From contig NZ_CP113925.1 of assembly GCF_029392015.1 (NCBI RefSeq), forward strand, positions 1,426,001 through 1,490,000: 64,000 bases of DNA, given 5' to 3'. The translations under genes were made by a program, and so were the position numbers. Below the pieces are notes generated by a model. It did no database searches, had not been told where the DNA came from, and saw nothing but the letters and a program-made list of their open reading frames with translations. This DNA comes from Bifidobacterium sp. ESL0728. Lineage in GTDB: Bacteria; Actinomycetota; Actinomycetes; Actinomycetales; Bifidobacteriaceae. Below are positions 18,761-44,914 of the stretch, in pieces (the stretch's first letter is position 1; each line of letters begins with the position of its first letter).

Positions 18761-18771
18761 TAGGGACGTAA

Positions 18772-18914
18772 GTTTCAGGGAAGGTGAAATTCCTTATTGG
18801 CGGTAACGACACTGTCGGTTTCATAACGACAGCATTGCCGAAGCCCGCGAGCCGCGGAAGCGGTCGATCCGGTGAGAATCCGAGGCCAACGGTTATAGTC
18901 CGGATGAAAGAAAC
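18772..18914 (+). promoter_or_regulatory. FMN riboswitch (RFN element)
   Basis: The closing stem is GTTTC (18772-18776) with GAAAC (18910-18914). The conserved RFN blocks are present in order: AGGGAAGGTGAAATTCC, TTGGCGGTAA, AGCCCGCGAGC, CCGGTGAGAATCCG, GGCCAACGGT and AGTCCGGATGAAAG. The element ends 10 bp before the RibU start codon. No terminator with a T run is visible between it and the gene, so FMN probably blocks translation initiation. Confidence 0.93.
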
Positions 18915-18924
18915 GGGGCTCATC

Positions 18925-41916: not shown

Positions 41917-42582
41917 ATGAATCGCACGTTGGAAACAGGGGTTTTGGACAACGATCAGCTTTCGCTGGACCGAATCACGTCGGTGTTGCCCAGACTGCTG
42001 CCGGGTCTTGTCATCGCTTGGAGCACCACCAGTGCCGATGAAGCCATTCGCCGTTGCCTTGATGAGCAATGGCGTCCCCGGCTTTTCATCACCGATGTCG
42101 AACTCGACGGTACTACCGGCATGGAGGTCTGCCGCCATATCCGTCACGAAGGTTGCGCGATACCTATTCTGGCGATGAGTTCGTTCAGCCCGAAGAAGTA
42201 TGCCAAACAGCTCTCAGAGGCGGGCGCACAAGGGTTCATGGTCAAAGGAAACATGCAACAGATGGCCATGGCTCTCAGTAATGTCGCCGCCGGAGACACA
42301 TTTTCGCCGGAACCGGACATATCGTTTCTTCGTCCCGAAGACGCCTGCCGAACCGTAACGGATTCCTCTGGAGAGAACGATATCTTCGATTCCCTGAGCG
42401 ACCTAGAGATACAGATCCTTCAGCAGACCTCGGAAGGATTCACCAATGAGGAAATCGCCGAGTCACTCAATGTCACCCCAGCCACGATACGCTCCCATAC
42501 ACGCACCATTCGCAACAAACTTGGCGCCAAAACCCTAAGCCACGCCGTAGCCCTCTGGCTGACGCACAATATTGCCGGTTGA
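41917..42582 (+). CDS. LuxR/NarL family response regulator
   Basis: 221 residues. The receiver domain has the phosphoacceptor Asp in LFITDVELDGTTGMEV and the switch Ser/Lys in AMSSFSPKKYAKQLSEAGAQGFMVKGN. After a linker, the LuxR-type helix-turn-helix is LSDLEIQILQQTSEGFTNEEIAESLNVTPATIRSHTRTIRNKLG (residues about 155-200). It is divergent from its likely partner kinase. The most probable targets are the adjacent ABC exporter genes. Confidence 0.9.
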   Translation: MNRTLETGVLDNDQLSLDRITSVLPRLLPGLVIAWSTTSADEAIRRCLDEQWRPRLFITDVELDGTTGMEVCRHIRHEGCAIPILAMSSFSPKKYAKQLSEAGAQGFMVKGNMQQMAMALSNVAAGDTFSPEPDISFLRPEDACRTVTDSSGENDIFDSLSDLEIQILQQTSEGFTNEEIAESLNVTPATIRSHTRTIRNKLGAKTLSHAVALWLTHNIAG

Positions 42583-42608
42583 AAACGAAAACAATTATTC
42601 AATTCATG

Positions 42609-42711
42609 TATACTCAAAGCTGTAGCCCACCCCGCTGGGGAAAGGGAAGTGAAAGCCGGAGTGCCTGTGTCTCTCATAGGAGCCGGCTTTCGCGTTACTT
42701 ACTGGCTATAA
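42609..42711 (+). ncRNA. Small structured transcription unit, copy 1
   Basis: TATACT (42609-42614) is followed after 7 bases by a block shared with copy 2. A hairpin CCCC-GCT-GGGG (42630-42640) is followed by AAAGGGAAGTG and a longer stem pairing GTGAAAGCCGG with CCGGCTTTCGC. The same architecture occurs at 44062-44173. The first hairpin differs in sequence between copies but keeps its pairing, which is evidence for a functional RNA structure. The -35 element is weak here. Confidence 0.5.
42649..42711 (+). CDS. Candidate small hydrophobic peptide, copy 1 (20 residues)
   Basis: A GTG-initiated frame reads MKAGVPVSLIGAGFRVTYWL and stops at TAA. GGGG and AAAGGG upstream could serve as a ribosome binding site, but lie in or beside a hairpin, and the GTG itself is in the second stem. 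The first 18 residues differ at only one position from copy 2. The short size, central apolar stretch and strongly folded mRNA resemble type I toxin or leader peptides, but no homologue is recognised. Translation is unproven. Confidence 0.35.
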   Translation: MKAGVPVSLIGAGFRVTYWL

Positions 42712-42726
42712 AAAATCCAACAAATT

Positions 42727-43149
42727 CTATTTGCTCGTATCGAACAATGCTTTTAGCTCGGTAGTTCCTGTCTGGGTGCAACTGAGTTTGTGGTCGCCGC
42801 TTTGCCCGACCTTTGCCTGAGCGAAGGCGAAAAGATTCTTGCCCTTGGAATCTGGGTAGTTGAGATCTTCAGTACTTGCCTTCATGGGATTGCCGTCGAC
42901 AGTGCAGCCTTCGGCCTTCATGCTTTTCAAATCATCACGATAGGTAAGAACATAAAGCGTACCGCCTTTGGAAGCAGTGATAGTGGTTGCACTTCCGTCG
43001 GAGTTGACATTATACTTTTCCATTTTCGAGAATCTGTCTGCCACCTCGCTCACGCTCGGCTCTGTACTCTTGGCTCCACACCCCGCAAGACTACCGACGC
43101 AAAGCAGCGCCGCCACTGCACCGATAATTCCCCTTATATTCTTTCCCAT
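42727..43149 (-). CDS. Small lipoprotein, module copy 1
   Basis: 140 residues with a signal peptide MGKNIRGIIGAVAALLCVG and lipobox SLAGCG, so it is exported and lipid-anchored. The mature part contains no domain I recognise; it has two Cys residues that could pair (EGCTVDG and LSCTQTG). It starts at ATG 43149; AAGAAGGG lies 11 bases upstream. The sequence before the start is shared with the lipoprotein gene at 44193. It converges on the small plus-strand unit, whose 3' end is 15 bp away. Confidence 0.75.
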   Translation of the reverse strand: MGKNIRGIIGAVAALLCVGSLAGCGAKSTEPSVSEVADRFSKMEKYNVNSDGSATTITASKGGTLYVLTYRDDLKSMKAEGCTVDGNPMKASTEDLNYPDSKGKNLFAFAQAKVGQSGDHKLSCTQTGTTELKALFDTSK

Positions 43150-43449
43150 TGCCTGTACCCTTCTTTGGACACATCGTTTTAGATGTTTTATTTTTTCTTA
43201 TGCGTCACAATATCAGCCCCCCTACTCACGTTTTCCCATTATGACTTTAGATATATTCTGAAAAGTATTTCGCTTCTGTCTTAAGTCATTACTTTTATCA
43301 TTATGTATTATCAAGAATCTTGAATTTCTACAGTTCTTTAGTTTCCTTTGGATAAATCACCATCATTAGGCTATTTTAAAAATAAGAAGCAATCTGCGGA
43401 TTTATATTTTAAACATGCCACGAATAATAGGCAAAGACGGAGCAATCTA
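43150..43449. other. AT-rich intergenic stretch with a lipoprotein leader block
   Basis: The first 85 bp carry two blocks also found upstream of the lipoprotein gene at 44193: GTACCCTTC-TTGGACACAT (43154-43173) and ATCAGCCC-CCCCTACTCA (43212-43228). Beyond these the sequence is AT-rich and I see nothing else, apart from an in-frame but weakly supported extension of the next gene from TTG 43348. Confidence 0.5.
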
Positions 43450-44016
43450 TTGGAACTAAAAGCATGGGGAGACGAAAGCATACTCACTCATGCCGTTCCA
43501 CGACCTCGTTACATGCTCGGAGTTTGTCTTTGCGATTTTGAAGAAGAAACGACACGAGCCAAACTACAAGAAATCAAACCGTTACACTCTTCAAAGCTAC
43601 ATTGGCGTGAAATGACGAAAATCCAGCACCAAGCTTCCATACAAGCCTTAACGGATTTCCCATTCCAATACGTTGTCGTAACAACATCAATGGGTGACCT
43701 ATCTCGTGCTGAACGAGCACGGGGAAAATGTTTTGAGACATTGCTACCACTTTTGGAATTCCACTATCATATCAACTCACTGATTATGGAATCGAGAGAA
43801 AAACATCAGAACGCTCACGACAAACTGATTATCAGCGGTTTGCATTCTCGTCAATTTATCAATCAGCTTCGTGTAACTTTCAAACCTGGAGCTGAGGATG
43901 CAAGATTATGGCTCCCAGACCAAATGTTGGGATTACTGAATGAAATTAAGCTAGAATCAACTTCATTTACAGAACCGATGAAAATAGACATAATAGACAC
44001 AGAATTATGCGTTTAA
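43450..44016 (+). CDS. DUF3800-like protein, possible RNase H-fold hydrolase
   Basis: 188 residues. The N-terminal AWGDES followed by a small hydrophobic stretch (RYMLGVCLCDF), then SSKLHWREM, QALTDFPFQYVVVTT and the acidic Asp near the C-terminus (AEDARLWLPDQMLGLLNEI), resembles the DUF3800 family, which has an RNase H-like fold; the match is by eye and tentative. TTG 43450 is preferred because GGAG at 43439-43442 is 7 bases upstream and this puts the DES motif close to the N-terminus; a TTG at 43348 would add 34 residues. Low GC relative to the surrounding genes suggests acquisition by transfer. Confidence 0.5.
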   Translation: MELKAWGDESILTHAVPRPRYMLGVCLCDFEEETTRAKLQEIKPLHSSKLHWREMTKIQHQASIQALTDFPFQYVVVTTSMGDLSRAERARGKCFETLLPLLEFHYHINSLIMESREKHQNAHDKLIISGLHSRQFINQLRVTFKPGAEDARLWLPDQMLGLLNEIKLESTSFTEPMKIDIIDTELCV

Positions 44017-44026
44017 CATACAAAAT

Positions 44027-44055
44027 TTGAAATTTCTGCTCCCACAAGGTATCTT
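44027..44055 (+). promoter_or_regulatory. Promoter of small transcription unit, copy 2
   Basis: TTGAAA (44027-44032) and TATCTT (44050-44055) are spaced exactly 17 bp apart. Transcription would start near 44063, the first base of the block conserved with copy 1. Confidence 0.65.
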
Positions 44056-44061
44056 AGACAC

Positions 44062-44173
44062 TAAGCCCACCTCCAAGGAGGAAAGGGAAGTGAAAGTCGG
44101 AGTGCCTGTGTCTCTCATAGGGGCCGGCTTTCGCGTTACTTACACGAACCTGTGTAGGTGCGTTACCCAGTAG
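44062..44173 (+). ncRNA. Small structured transcription unit, copy 2
   Basis: Starts with AAGCCCACC, then hairpin CCTCC-AA-GGAGG (44070-44081), AAAGGGAAGTG, and the stem GTGAAAGTCGG with CCGGCTTTCGC, with a small CCTGTG-TCTCT-CATAGG hairpin inside. Compared with copy 1, the first hairpin has compensatory changes, and the one change in the second stem gives a G-U wobble. The hairpin places the perfect Shine-Dalgarno GGAGG in a stem. Confidence 0.55.
44090..44173 (+). CDS. Candidate small hydrophobic peptide, copy 2 (27 residues)
   Basis: A GTG-initiated frame begins MKVGVPVSLIGAGFRVTY and then continues for nine residues (Thr, Asn, Leu, Cys, Arg, Cys, Val, Thr, Gln) unlike copy 1. AGGAGG at 44076-44081 (partly within the hairpin) precedes the GTG by 8 bases. 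Over the shared 54 coding bases there are two differences: one Ala/Val and one silent. Function and translation are unproven. Confidence 0.38.
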   Translation: MKVGVPVSLIGAGFRVTYTNLCRCVTQ

Positions 44174-44192
44174 CAGTGAAAGAAAAGCAGAA

Positions 44193-44666
44193 TCAGTCGT
44201 CTTTGATGAATCCGCCTTCGCTGACCGATTTGCAGGTCTGATAGTCGATTTTCCACTGACCATCTTCCTGTACAAAACCTAGATCCATCACCGCATCACT
44301 GGTCAGGACCGCTGAAGAATCCGAATCTCCTTTCAGCACCTTGCCCTTATCGATGCCTTGAGTGATGTGCTGAAGGTTCTTATGCCAATTTTTATCAAGC
44401 CTCAGCGAGCCAGTTAAATCATATTTCTTGGCTAACGATGCGTCATCCGAGCAACGCTGGCTTGCATAACTCATAATTGATTTTGAATCGCCCTGATACA
44501 TTTCTTTGAAAAAGTTTTTGGCCGTATCCTTGACCTTAGATGCTTCCGAGGAAGCAACACTTTCATTACCATGCGGTAGAGAGCCATCATTCCCACATGC
44601 GCTTACTACCACTGGCAGGATAAGGCAAGCTACTAAGGCAGCAACACCTCGCATGTTCTTCCGCAT
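44193..44666 (-). CDS. Small lipoprotein, module copy 2
   Basis: 157 residues. The signal peptide MRKNMRGVAALVACLILPVV ends in the lipobox VSACGND. The mature part looks like a small NTF2/DUF4878-like fold: VKDTAKNFFKEMYQGDSKSIMSYAS, then MDLGFVQEDGQWKIDYQTC near the end. This family assignment is tentative. The start is ATG 44666 with AAGGAAGGG upstream; the in-frame extension to 44837 runs through repeats. Its leader and its position opposite the small plus-strand unit mirror the lipoprotein gene at 42727. Confidence 0.7.
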   Translation of the reverse strand: MRKNMRGVAALVACLILPVVVSACGNDGSLPHGNESVASSEASKVKDTAKNFFKEMYQGDSKSIMSYASQRCSDDASLAKKYDLTGSLRLDKNWHKNLQHITQGIDKGKVLKGDSDSSAVLTSDAVMDLGFVQEDGQWKIDYQTCKSVSEGGFIKDD

Positions 44667-44766
44667 TATTCGTACCCTTCCTTGGACACATACACAGTAA
44701 TGATTATTTCGTGCTAGTTGCCAGATTATCAGCCTTCCCCTACTCATATTCTTCAGAACTGCGACC

Positions 44767-44897
44767 AAAAGCACGTTTTTAAGCCCTATTTCGTGCTTTT
44801 TTCGCAGTATCACGCGAAACCAGTGAAAAAGCACCAAAATGGAGCCGAAATGGTGCTTTTCTCACTGATGAGCGGTTTTACTGAGGAGAAAAGCACC
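44767..44897. repeat. Alternating AAAAGCAC/GTGCTTTT repeat array
   Basis: Five copies in alternating orientation: AAAAGCAC (44767-44774), GTGCTTTT (44793-44800), AAAAGCACC (44827-44835), GGTGCTTTT (44852-44860) and AAAAGCACC (44889-44897). Neighbouring copies can pair in mutually exclusive hairpins; CAGTGAAAAAGCACC with GGTGCTTTTCTCACTG is the longest. On the minus strand two of the hairpins run into T-rich sequence. It occupies the gap between clpC and the lipoprotein gene. Confidence 0.6.
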
Positions 44898-44914
44898 TTT
44901 TGACGTTTGAATAC

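Follow-up and report, generated by a model that had tools for sequence, protein, structure and literature searches.

The original paper on DUF3800 RNAs is that of Weinberg and others, from 2017. Rfam lists DUF3800-I and DUF3800-IX as RNAs that lie beside DUF3800 genes (PMC11701678). In type III toxin-antitoxin systems, as the literature describes them, the antitoxin consists of multiple RNA repeats and the toxin is an endoribonuclease. Here we describe a small RNA that occurs twice in a stretch of 64,000 nucleotides from Bifidobacterium sp. ESL0728 (contig NZ_CP113925.1, positions 1,426,001 to 1,490,000 of the forward strand; the window), together with the gene between the two copies. The copies are conserved and covary, copy 2 is paired with the gene that precedes it, and this gene encodes a predicted nuclease with an RNase H fold; we give about even weight to the proposal that the RNA binds this protein and holds it in check. 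Two points go beyond an earlier reading of the letters alone (the sequence-only reading), which had drawn attention to the repeat: the open reading frame between the copies is part of the same system, and the RNA forms a multi-copy family.

A covariance model of the RNA, R1, was built from 14 sequences, to which copy 1 belonged and copy 2 did not. The parts of the system, in window positions, are as follows.

42609..42614, + strand: -10 box TATACT of RNA copy 1, read from the sequence
42622..42702, + strand: RNA copy 1, solo, with no partner gene directly before it (R1 match 42622-42700, 91.8 bits)
42626..42646, + strand: hairpin 1 of copy 1, pairs 42626-42628/42644-42646 and 42630-42633/42637-42640 (sequence; inner pairs present in the fold; two-sided changes in the family)
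42649..42693, + strand: hairpin 2 of copy 1, pairs 42649-42659/42683-42693, inner stem 42664-42669/42675-42680 (fold and pair counts)
42649-42651, + strand: GTG of the sequence-only reading in copy 1, inside the stem of hairpin 2
43450..44016, + strand: partner protein gene, predicted TTG start at 43450, 188 amino acids, divergent DUF3800-like protein with an RNase H fold (open reading frame, alignment, structure model and fold matches)
44027..44055, + strand: predicted promoter of RNA copy 2, TTGAAA (44027-44032)-N17-TATCTT (44050-44055), read from the sequence
44063..44143, + strand: RNA copy 2, partner of the gene at 43450-44016, 46 bases past its stop codon (R1 match 44062-44141, 77.7 bits)
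44066..44087, + strand: hairpin 1 of copy 2, CCTCC/GGAGG closed by CCC/GGG (sequence and fold)
44090..44134, + strand: hairpin 2 of copy 2, pairs 44090-44100/44124-44134, inner stem 44105-44110/44116-44121 (fold and pair counts)

Direct reading and a repeat search define a direct repeat of 64 bases (42639-42702 and 44080-44143, 97% identical) with an offset of 1441 bases, which agrees with the spacing of about 1.4 kilobases given by the sequence-only reading. What that reading had seen in the letters also holds: TTGAAA-N17-TATCTT in front of copy 2; a -10 box followed 7 bases later by the common block in both copies (after TATACT in copy 1, where no good -35 box was seen, and between TATCTT and AAGCCC in copy 2); the compensation of CCCC/GGGG in copy 1 by CCTCC/GGAGG in copy 2; a frame from GTG to TAC with exactly the two substitutions described, one Ala/Val and one silent; and the place of the GTG inside the second, long stem. 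Folding against shuffled sequences gave z scores of -3.3 and -3.8 for the two copies on the + strand versus -0.0 and -0.3 on the - strand, and the fold of the copies is therefore not chance; a reading of the element on the - strand, where the fold is not unusual, was rejected. In its own genome a 23-base core, with up to 3 mismatches allowed, occurs only at these two sites, and R1 finds five copies there. A repeat search of 42400-44900 found no tandem array, and a single RNA unit stands behind the gene.

By blastn the element is found in 17 of 112 Bifidobacterium genomes, and R1, run over the genus with strict filters that may miss weak matches, gave 71 matches in 41 of the 112. A pattern search of GTDB contigs found 12 loci, including one in Olsenella and two in Eggerthellaceae; a further locus of this search, L032, was judged to be a chance match. 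The R1 matches from 69 sources were aligned in 78 rows, and dropping two antisense rows and identical copies left 71 distinct sequences, a number that equals the genus matches by coincidence. Across 73 distinct alignment rows, 96.2% of cells are paired and 14 of the 22 pairs show two-sided changes (156 such cells). None of 500 shuffles paired as highly and slid versions reached at most 54.2%, a count that leans towards R1 because the alignment had been fitted to the model. Hairpin 2 forms at least 9 of its 11 pairs in 68 of 71 real sequences versus 378 of 1420 sequences in which only the 3' part was shuffled, and its inner stem forms all 6 pairs in 63 of 71 real versus 235 of 1420 shuffled segments.

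One of two possibilities offered by the sequence-only reading was an mRNA, translationally locked, that encodes a short hydrophobic peptide (a type I toxin or a signalling peptide, for example), and the frame does persist between the window copies and in close relatives. However, among the 71 distinct relatives the GTG is present in 44 and lost in 27, a start with 17 open codons is found in 35, a stop falls within 17 codons in 13, and in 61 of them at most 8 of 17 peptide residues are the same as in copy 1. With 22 base pairs kept, 14 of them with two-sided changes, and the GTG frame failing, the element is a structured RNA of about 80 bases and not a peptide gene; the peptide explanation is largely refuted and retains next to no probability. 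The same reading had looked to relatives with broken frames and hairpins that do not covary as evidence against its idea. The relatives do break the frame, but both hairpins covary, which supports the structured regulatory RNA that it had offered as an alternative.

The consensus runs from a -10 box and a few bases through AAGCC, hairpin 1, a GGAAGU linker and hairpin 2 (11 pairs plus the inner stem) to GCGYU and a tail rich in pyrimidines. In 57 of the 71 relatives the -14 to -5 window contains a hexamer that agrees with TATAAT at 4 or more of its 6 positions, versus 13 to 17 of 71 in four other windows, and the tail behind hairpin 2 is 69% pyrimidine versus 51% further on. The RNA is thus predicted to be transcribed from its own promoter, with its 3' end within this short pyrimidine-rich tail. 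About 9 bases past hairpin 2 the conservation stops, so that nothing inside the RNA looks like a guide, and composition beyond is near even.

How closely is the RNA tied to the gene? The protein was found at 32 loci in 23 of the 112 Bifidobacterium genomes, and at 30 of these loci an RNA lies within 300 nucleotides of the 3' end of the gene, the two misses being fragments. All 22 genes classed as intact, which contain no stop and match 167 or more of the 191 profile positions, have the RNA at their 3' end, 15 on the same strand and 7 convergent; the second pieces of broken genes were removed by hand from the locus counts. Both partners occur in 23 genomes, the protein only in 0, the RNA only in 18 and neither in 71 (Fisher p 4e-13, computed over related genomes that are not independent). 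Of the 71 RNAs, 41 are solo copies, 21 of them in genomes in which the protein was not found, and 8 lie beside broken genes. In genomes without the protein an average of 10.1 of the 11 pairs of hairpin 2 are retained, versus 10.7 next to intact genes; each group comprises 19 distinct sequences, and 65 of the 71 rows could be placed for this comparison.

A second DUF3800 lineage, of the PF12686 type, was matched in 36 of the 112 genomes and has the RNA behind its gene in 4 (G043, G055, G074 and G097). At L114, L115 and L119 the RNA is on the same strand, 137 to 139 bases behind the PF12686-type gene, and at L116 the gene is broken (Pfam was tested for L119). The four cases probably reflect one ancestral event. 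This lineage was rejected as a general partner, the RNA accompanying it in only 4 of 36 genomes and the other 3' flanks inspected having no common RNA by eye.

Outside the genus, tblastn with the window protein found 14 plasmids of Pseudarthrobacter, Arthrobacter, Streptomyces, Rhodococcus, Kocuria, Mycobacterium and Dietzia (26 to 35% identity). Nine of the 14 loci were examined, the other five being further Mycobacterium plasmids, and at all nine the best R1 match is convergent and begins no more than about 60 bases from the 3' end of the gene, with expect values (E) of 3e-9 to 0.087. MOB-suite classed 3 of the 14 plasmids as conjugative, 7 as mobilizable and 4 as non-mobilizable; genes of the parA family lie close by in the records from M. 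avium and Rhodococcus. When 396 actinobacterial genomes were searched with a profile, 12 sites came up, spread over 10 genomes, and two of these sites belong to the own genome; one of the other 10 is cut by a contig end, leaving nine testable, and in eight of these the top R1 match at the locus is convergent (E 1e-4 to 0.55). The eight weak matches surfaced once loci were scored without filters. These far members stand at the edge of R1 sensitivity; the argument rests on their common place and not on their scores. In two Eggerthellaceae assemblies the RNA is present at 3 of 3 genes, and in Olsenella the RNA was found and the gene was not.

This placement bears on the idea of a trans-acting regulatory small RNA that lies near the gene by accident. 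Such an RNA would suit the 41 solo copies among 71 and the predicted promoter of its own, yet an RNA at the 3' end in 30 of 32 genus gene loci and 17 of 18 testable far loci makes the idea quite improbable. It could also be asked whether the protein moves a small selfish element that encodes the RNA, with the solo RNAs as non-autonomous copies. The copies in the own genome differ in sequence, however, and some copies recur beside the same genes in relatives (clpC-type, 8 loci; YobI-type, 4 loci; the Pfam name was tested for one). A recent burst is unlikely on these two grounds, and we regard mobility as improbable.

The partner protein, whose TTG start codon at 43450 was placed from the alignment, was modeled over residues 2-188 with a mean predicted local distance difference test score of 94.8, and this confident model has an RNase H fold. 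Its best fold matches are to RNase H2/HII; ToxN is absent among the matches listed, which is no test of the ToxN fold, and the best viral match is a DUF3800 protein. Four residues, D7, E8, E113 and D156 (counting starts at the residue that follows the start codon), are invariant in 24 of 24 members. These may be the active-site residues of an enzyme that cuts nucleic acid. PF12686 gave weak matches to 6 of the 24 members (best E 0.0045), below the curated Pfam cut-off, and nothing in the own genome up to E 0.001. A profile comparison of the protein family with one PF12686 lineage was not significant. UniRef names two relatives DUF3800 domain-containing among the best 120 of 339. PADLOC models matched one member each, most strongly the candidate-defence model PDC-M04A (1 of 24 members, E 1.2e-4), with the rest at E 0.0098 or weaker; NCBIfam matched members only at E 0.016 or weaker. 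An early contig scan with the window protein found no relative. A phage origin was considered and rejected: there was no protein match in 50,697 phage records, and in IMG/VR two peptide patterns gave no confirmed relative and a strict DNA pattern gave none.

We hypothesize that the RNase H-fold protein would act as a nuclease on nucleic acid and that the RNA may bind and restrain it, in the manner of an antitoxin, following type III logic with other parts. A restraining RNA is suggested because the gene is almost never found without the RNA, the RNA is often found without the gene, and plasmids carry the pair; such an asymmetry would be expected of a protein that does harm or is of no use when the RNA is missing, and of an RNA that has value by itself. 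The RNA would presumably act on the protein and not on its mRNA. A search for antisense pairing, as between a type I antitoxin RNA and its toxin mRNA, of the RNA with positions -60 to +60 of the gene mRNA showed no excess in 19 pairs (mean z 0.24); convergent copies could overlap the mRNA 3' end. Antisense control of the start of the neighboring mRNA was set aside, there being no signal over the 19 pairs. Gene and RNA together might form an addiction or abortive-defence module, and the RNA copies without a gene might serve as standing antidotes. More tentatively, and with rather less than even confidence, we suggest a new class of toxin or defence modules gated by RNA, distributed across Actinomycetota and also borne by conjugative and mobilizable plasmids, in which a minimal RNase H-fold nuclease is checked by one 80-base RNA of two hairpins and the extra chromosomal RNAs are antidotes against incoming modules.

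Several observations weigh against this proposal. The asymmetry between gene and RNA equally suits an RNA that is required for activity and has a second job elsewhere. No toxin family matched the protein, the window protein does not match Pfam DUF3800 (PF12686) at E up to 1, and the active-site assignment draws on the invariance and order of the residues and not on a printed structural alignment. The PDC-M04A match would suit defence no less than addiction. Among the 71 relatives the -35 region hardly exceeds chance. Outside the genus, the first R1 scan of 396 actinobacterial genomes, run under strict filtering, gave the RNA nowhere but in the own genome, and some matches at far loci are poor, on the plasmids of Rue61a (E 0.013) and Dietzia (E 0.087) and at the chromosomal loci with E above 0.01 (L244, 0.022; L249, 0.03; L248, 0.035; L246, 0.55). 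L247, an open frame without an R1 match at its 3' end, breaks the pairing rule there.

The main rival, nearly as open although we consider it somewhat unlikely, is that the RNA is a working subunit of a defence ribonucleoprotein, in which it scaffolds the RNase H-fold protein or directs it, as has been proposed for DUF3800 proteins that lie next to CRISPR effectors. The obligate pairing of intact genes with the RNA suits a subunit equally well, as does the candidate-defence match to PDC-M04A in one of 24 members. DUF3800 proteins are reported to have the RNase H fold and to be encoded beside Cas12a2 and within V-A2 and VI-F loci (PMC10910872 and PMC12669027), and two of the PADLOC RT-DUF3800_VII-A1 models, by name reverse transcriptases joined to DUF3800, each match one of 24 members weakly (best E 0.04). 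However, an RNA subunit without its protein should decay, yet 21 RNAs are in genomes without the protein and the 19 distinct ones are nearly intact in pairing. A variable guide is not seen inside the conserved RNA; a guide could still come from the variable flank.

Some further features were seen around the RNA copies. The three other copies in the own genome lie outside the window: L130 (4970-5046, + strand) sits behind a second intact partner gene, and L131 (5010-5087, - strand) and L132 (5033-5110, + strand) are solo. At L118, a close relative, the RNA resembles window positions 42602-42702 (copy 1, including its -10 region) yet occupies the position of copy 2. Behind the RNA copies at L105, L121, L122, L071, L076 and L098, at a distance of up to about 60 bases, there is a recurrent motif similar to GGTTATAGGCCA or to its complement, a recurrence not compared with genome background. 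The solo RNAs at L072, L076, L085 and L131 are near genes of one family, the gene at L072 being that of a YobI-like P-loop nucleoside triphosphatase, and near the solo copy at L055 there is a sub-threshold match to the abiF RNA (1653-1689, - strand, 28.5 bits; gathering threshold 37). In the window, two genes that look lipoprotein-like by eye (42727-43149 and 44193-44837, both - strand) each end a few dozen bases from one RNA copy and have in common a 39-base repeat, 79% alike, near their starts (43136-43174 and 44653-44691). The sole Rfam match above gathering threshold in the window is a flavin mononucleotide riboswitch (18767-18919, + strand, 83.1 bits).

DUF3800 proteins occur beside unexplained RNAs, CRISPR effectors and, going by a PADLOC model name, reverse transcriptases, and the literature searched, as far as its available parts go, gave no biochemical account of what a DUF3800 protein does with its RNA. 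The pair described here is small (a 188-residue protein and an RNA of about 80 bases) and has plain comparative genetics; it could be expressed, swapped and solved, and would make the role of DUF3800-associated RNAs directly testable. If the RNA restrains the protein, the pair would be an RNA-controlled toxin or defence module. No published account of the RNA family was found in the literature searched, which did not cover the 2017 DUF3800 RNA paper. Catalogues of predicted RNAs may list it unnamed; a search of the main text of PMC8040213 for three terms gave no occurrence.

Among known systems, the Rfam DUF3800 RNAs (DUF3800-I, RF02969; DUF3800-IX, RF02968; and their kin) are the nearest in kind, being small structured RNAs that adjoin a DUF3800-type gene; the window RNA does so too if its divergent partner protein counts as DUF3800-type. 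Known Rfam DUF3800 RNAs lie beside other DUF3800 genes at 6 of 20 Bifidobacterium loci scanned, DUF3800-IX convergent behind the 3' end of the gene (L176-L179, 4 loci) and DUF3800-I before the gene and on its strand (L181 and L185). Both consensus sequences end in U. DUF3800-IX forms a three-way junction, in contrast to the hairpin, GGAAGU linker, long hairpin and GCGYU of the window RNA. Lenient scans with the Rfam DUF3800 models over the window region, 20 family loci, 9 plasmid loci and 12 further loci gave no match on the RNA, and R1 had no match below E 0.2 at 30 loci of other DUF3800 genes, a 31st source being a broken copy of its own family. As no Rfam model matched in the scans made, the RNA family is absent from Rfam 15, and it goes with a protein lineage that Pfam misses. 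The idea that the element is a known riboswitch or small RNA was rejected on the basis of these scans. The remark of the sequence-only reading that no described family fits thus stands for the RNA as far as Rfam goes, and falls in that DUF3800-associated RNAs (DUF3800-I, DUF3800-IX) are a described kind. PF12686 DUF3800 proteins share with the window protein the RNase H fold and an N-terminal DES motif (the DUF3800 fold being taken from the literature), but the window protein has no Pfam DUF3800 match. RNase HII and RNase H2 are only 5 to 15% identical in the fold-match rows, and hybrid cleavage is not indicated. TnpB/IscB-type RNA-guided nucleases have a variable guide, and the conserved window RNA contains no guide-like part. 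The RNA family lacks the conserved hydrophobic peptide frame of type I toxin-antitoxin systems. Unlike type III systems (ToxIN, CptIN, AvcID), the window has a single RNA unit, behind the gene, and a partner protein modeled with an RNase H fold; what it may have in common with them is the proposed logic of a protein effector held by a noncoding RNA.
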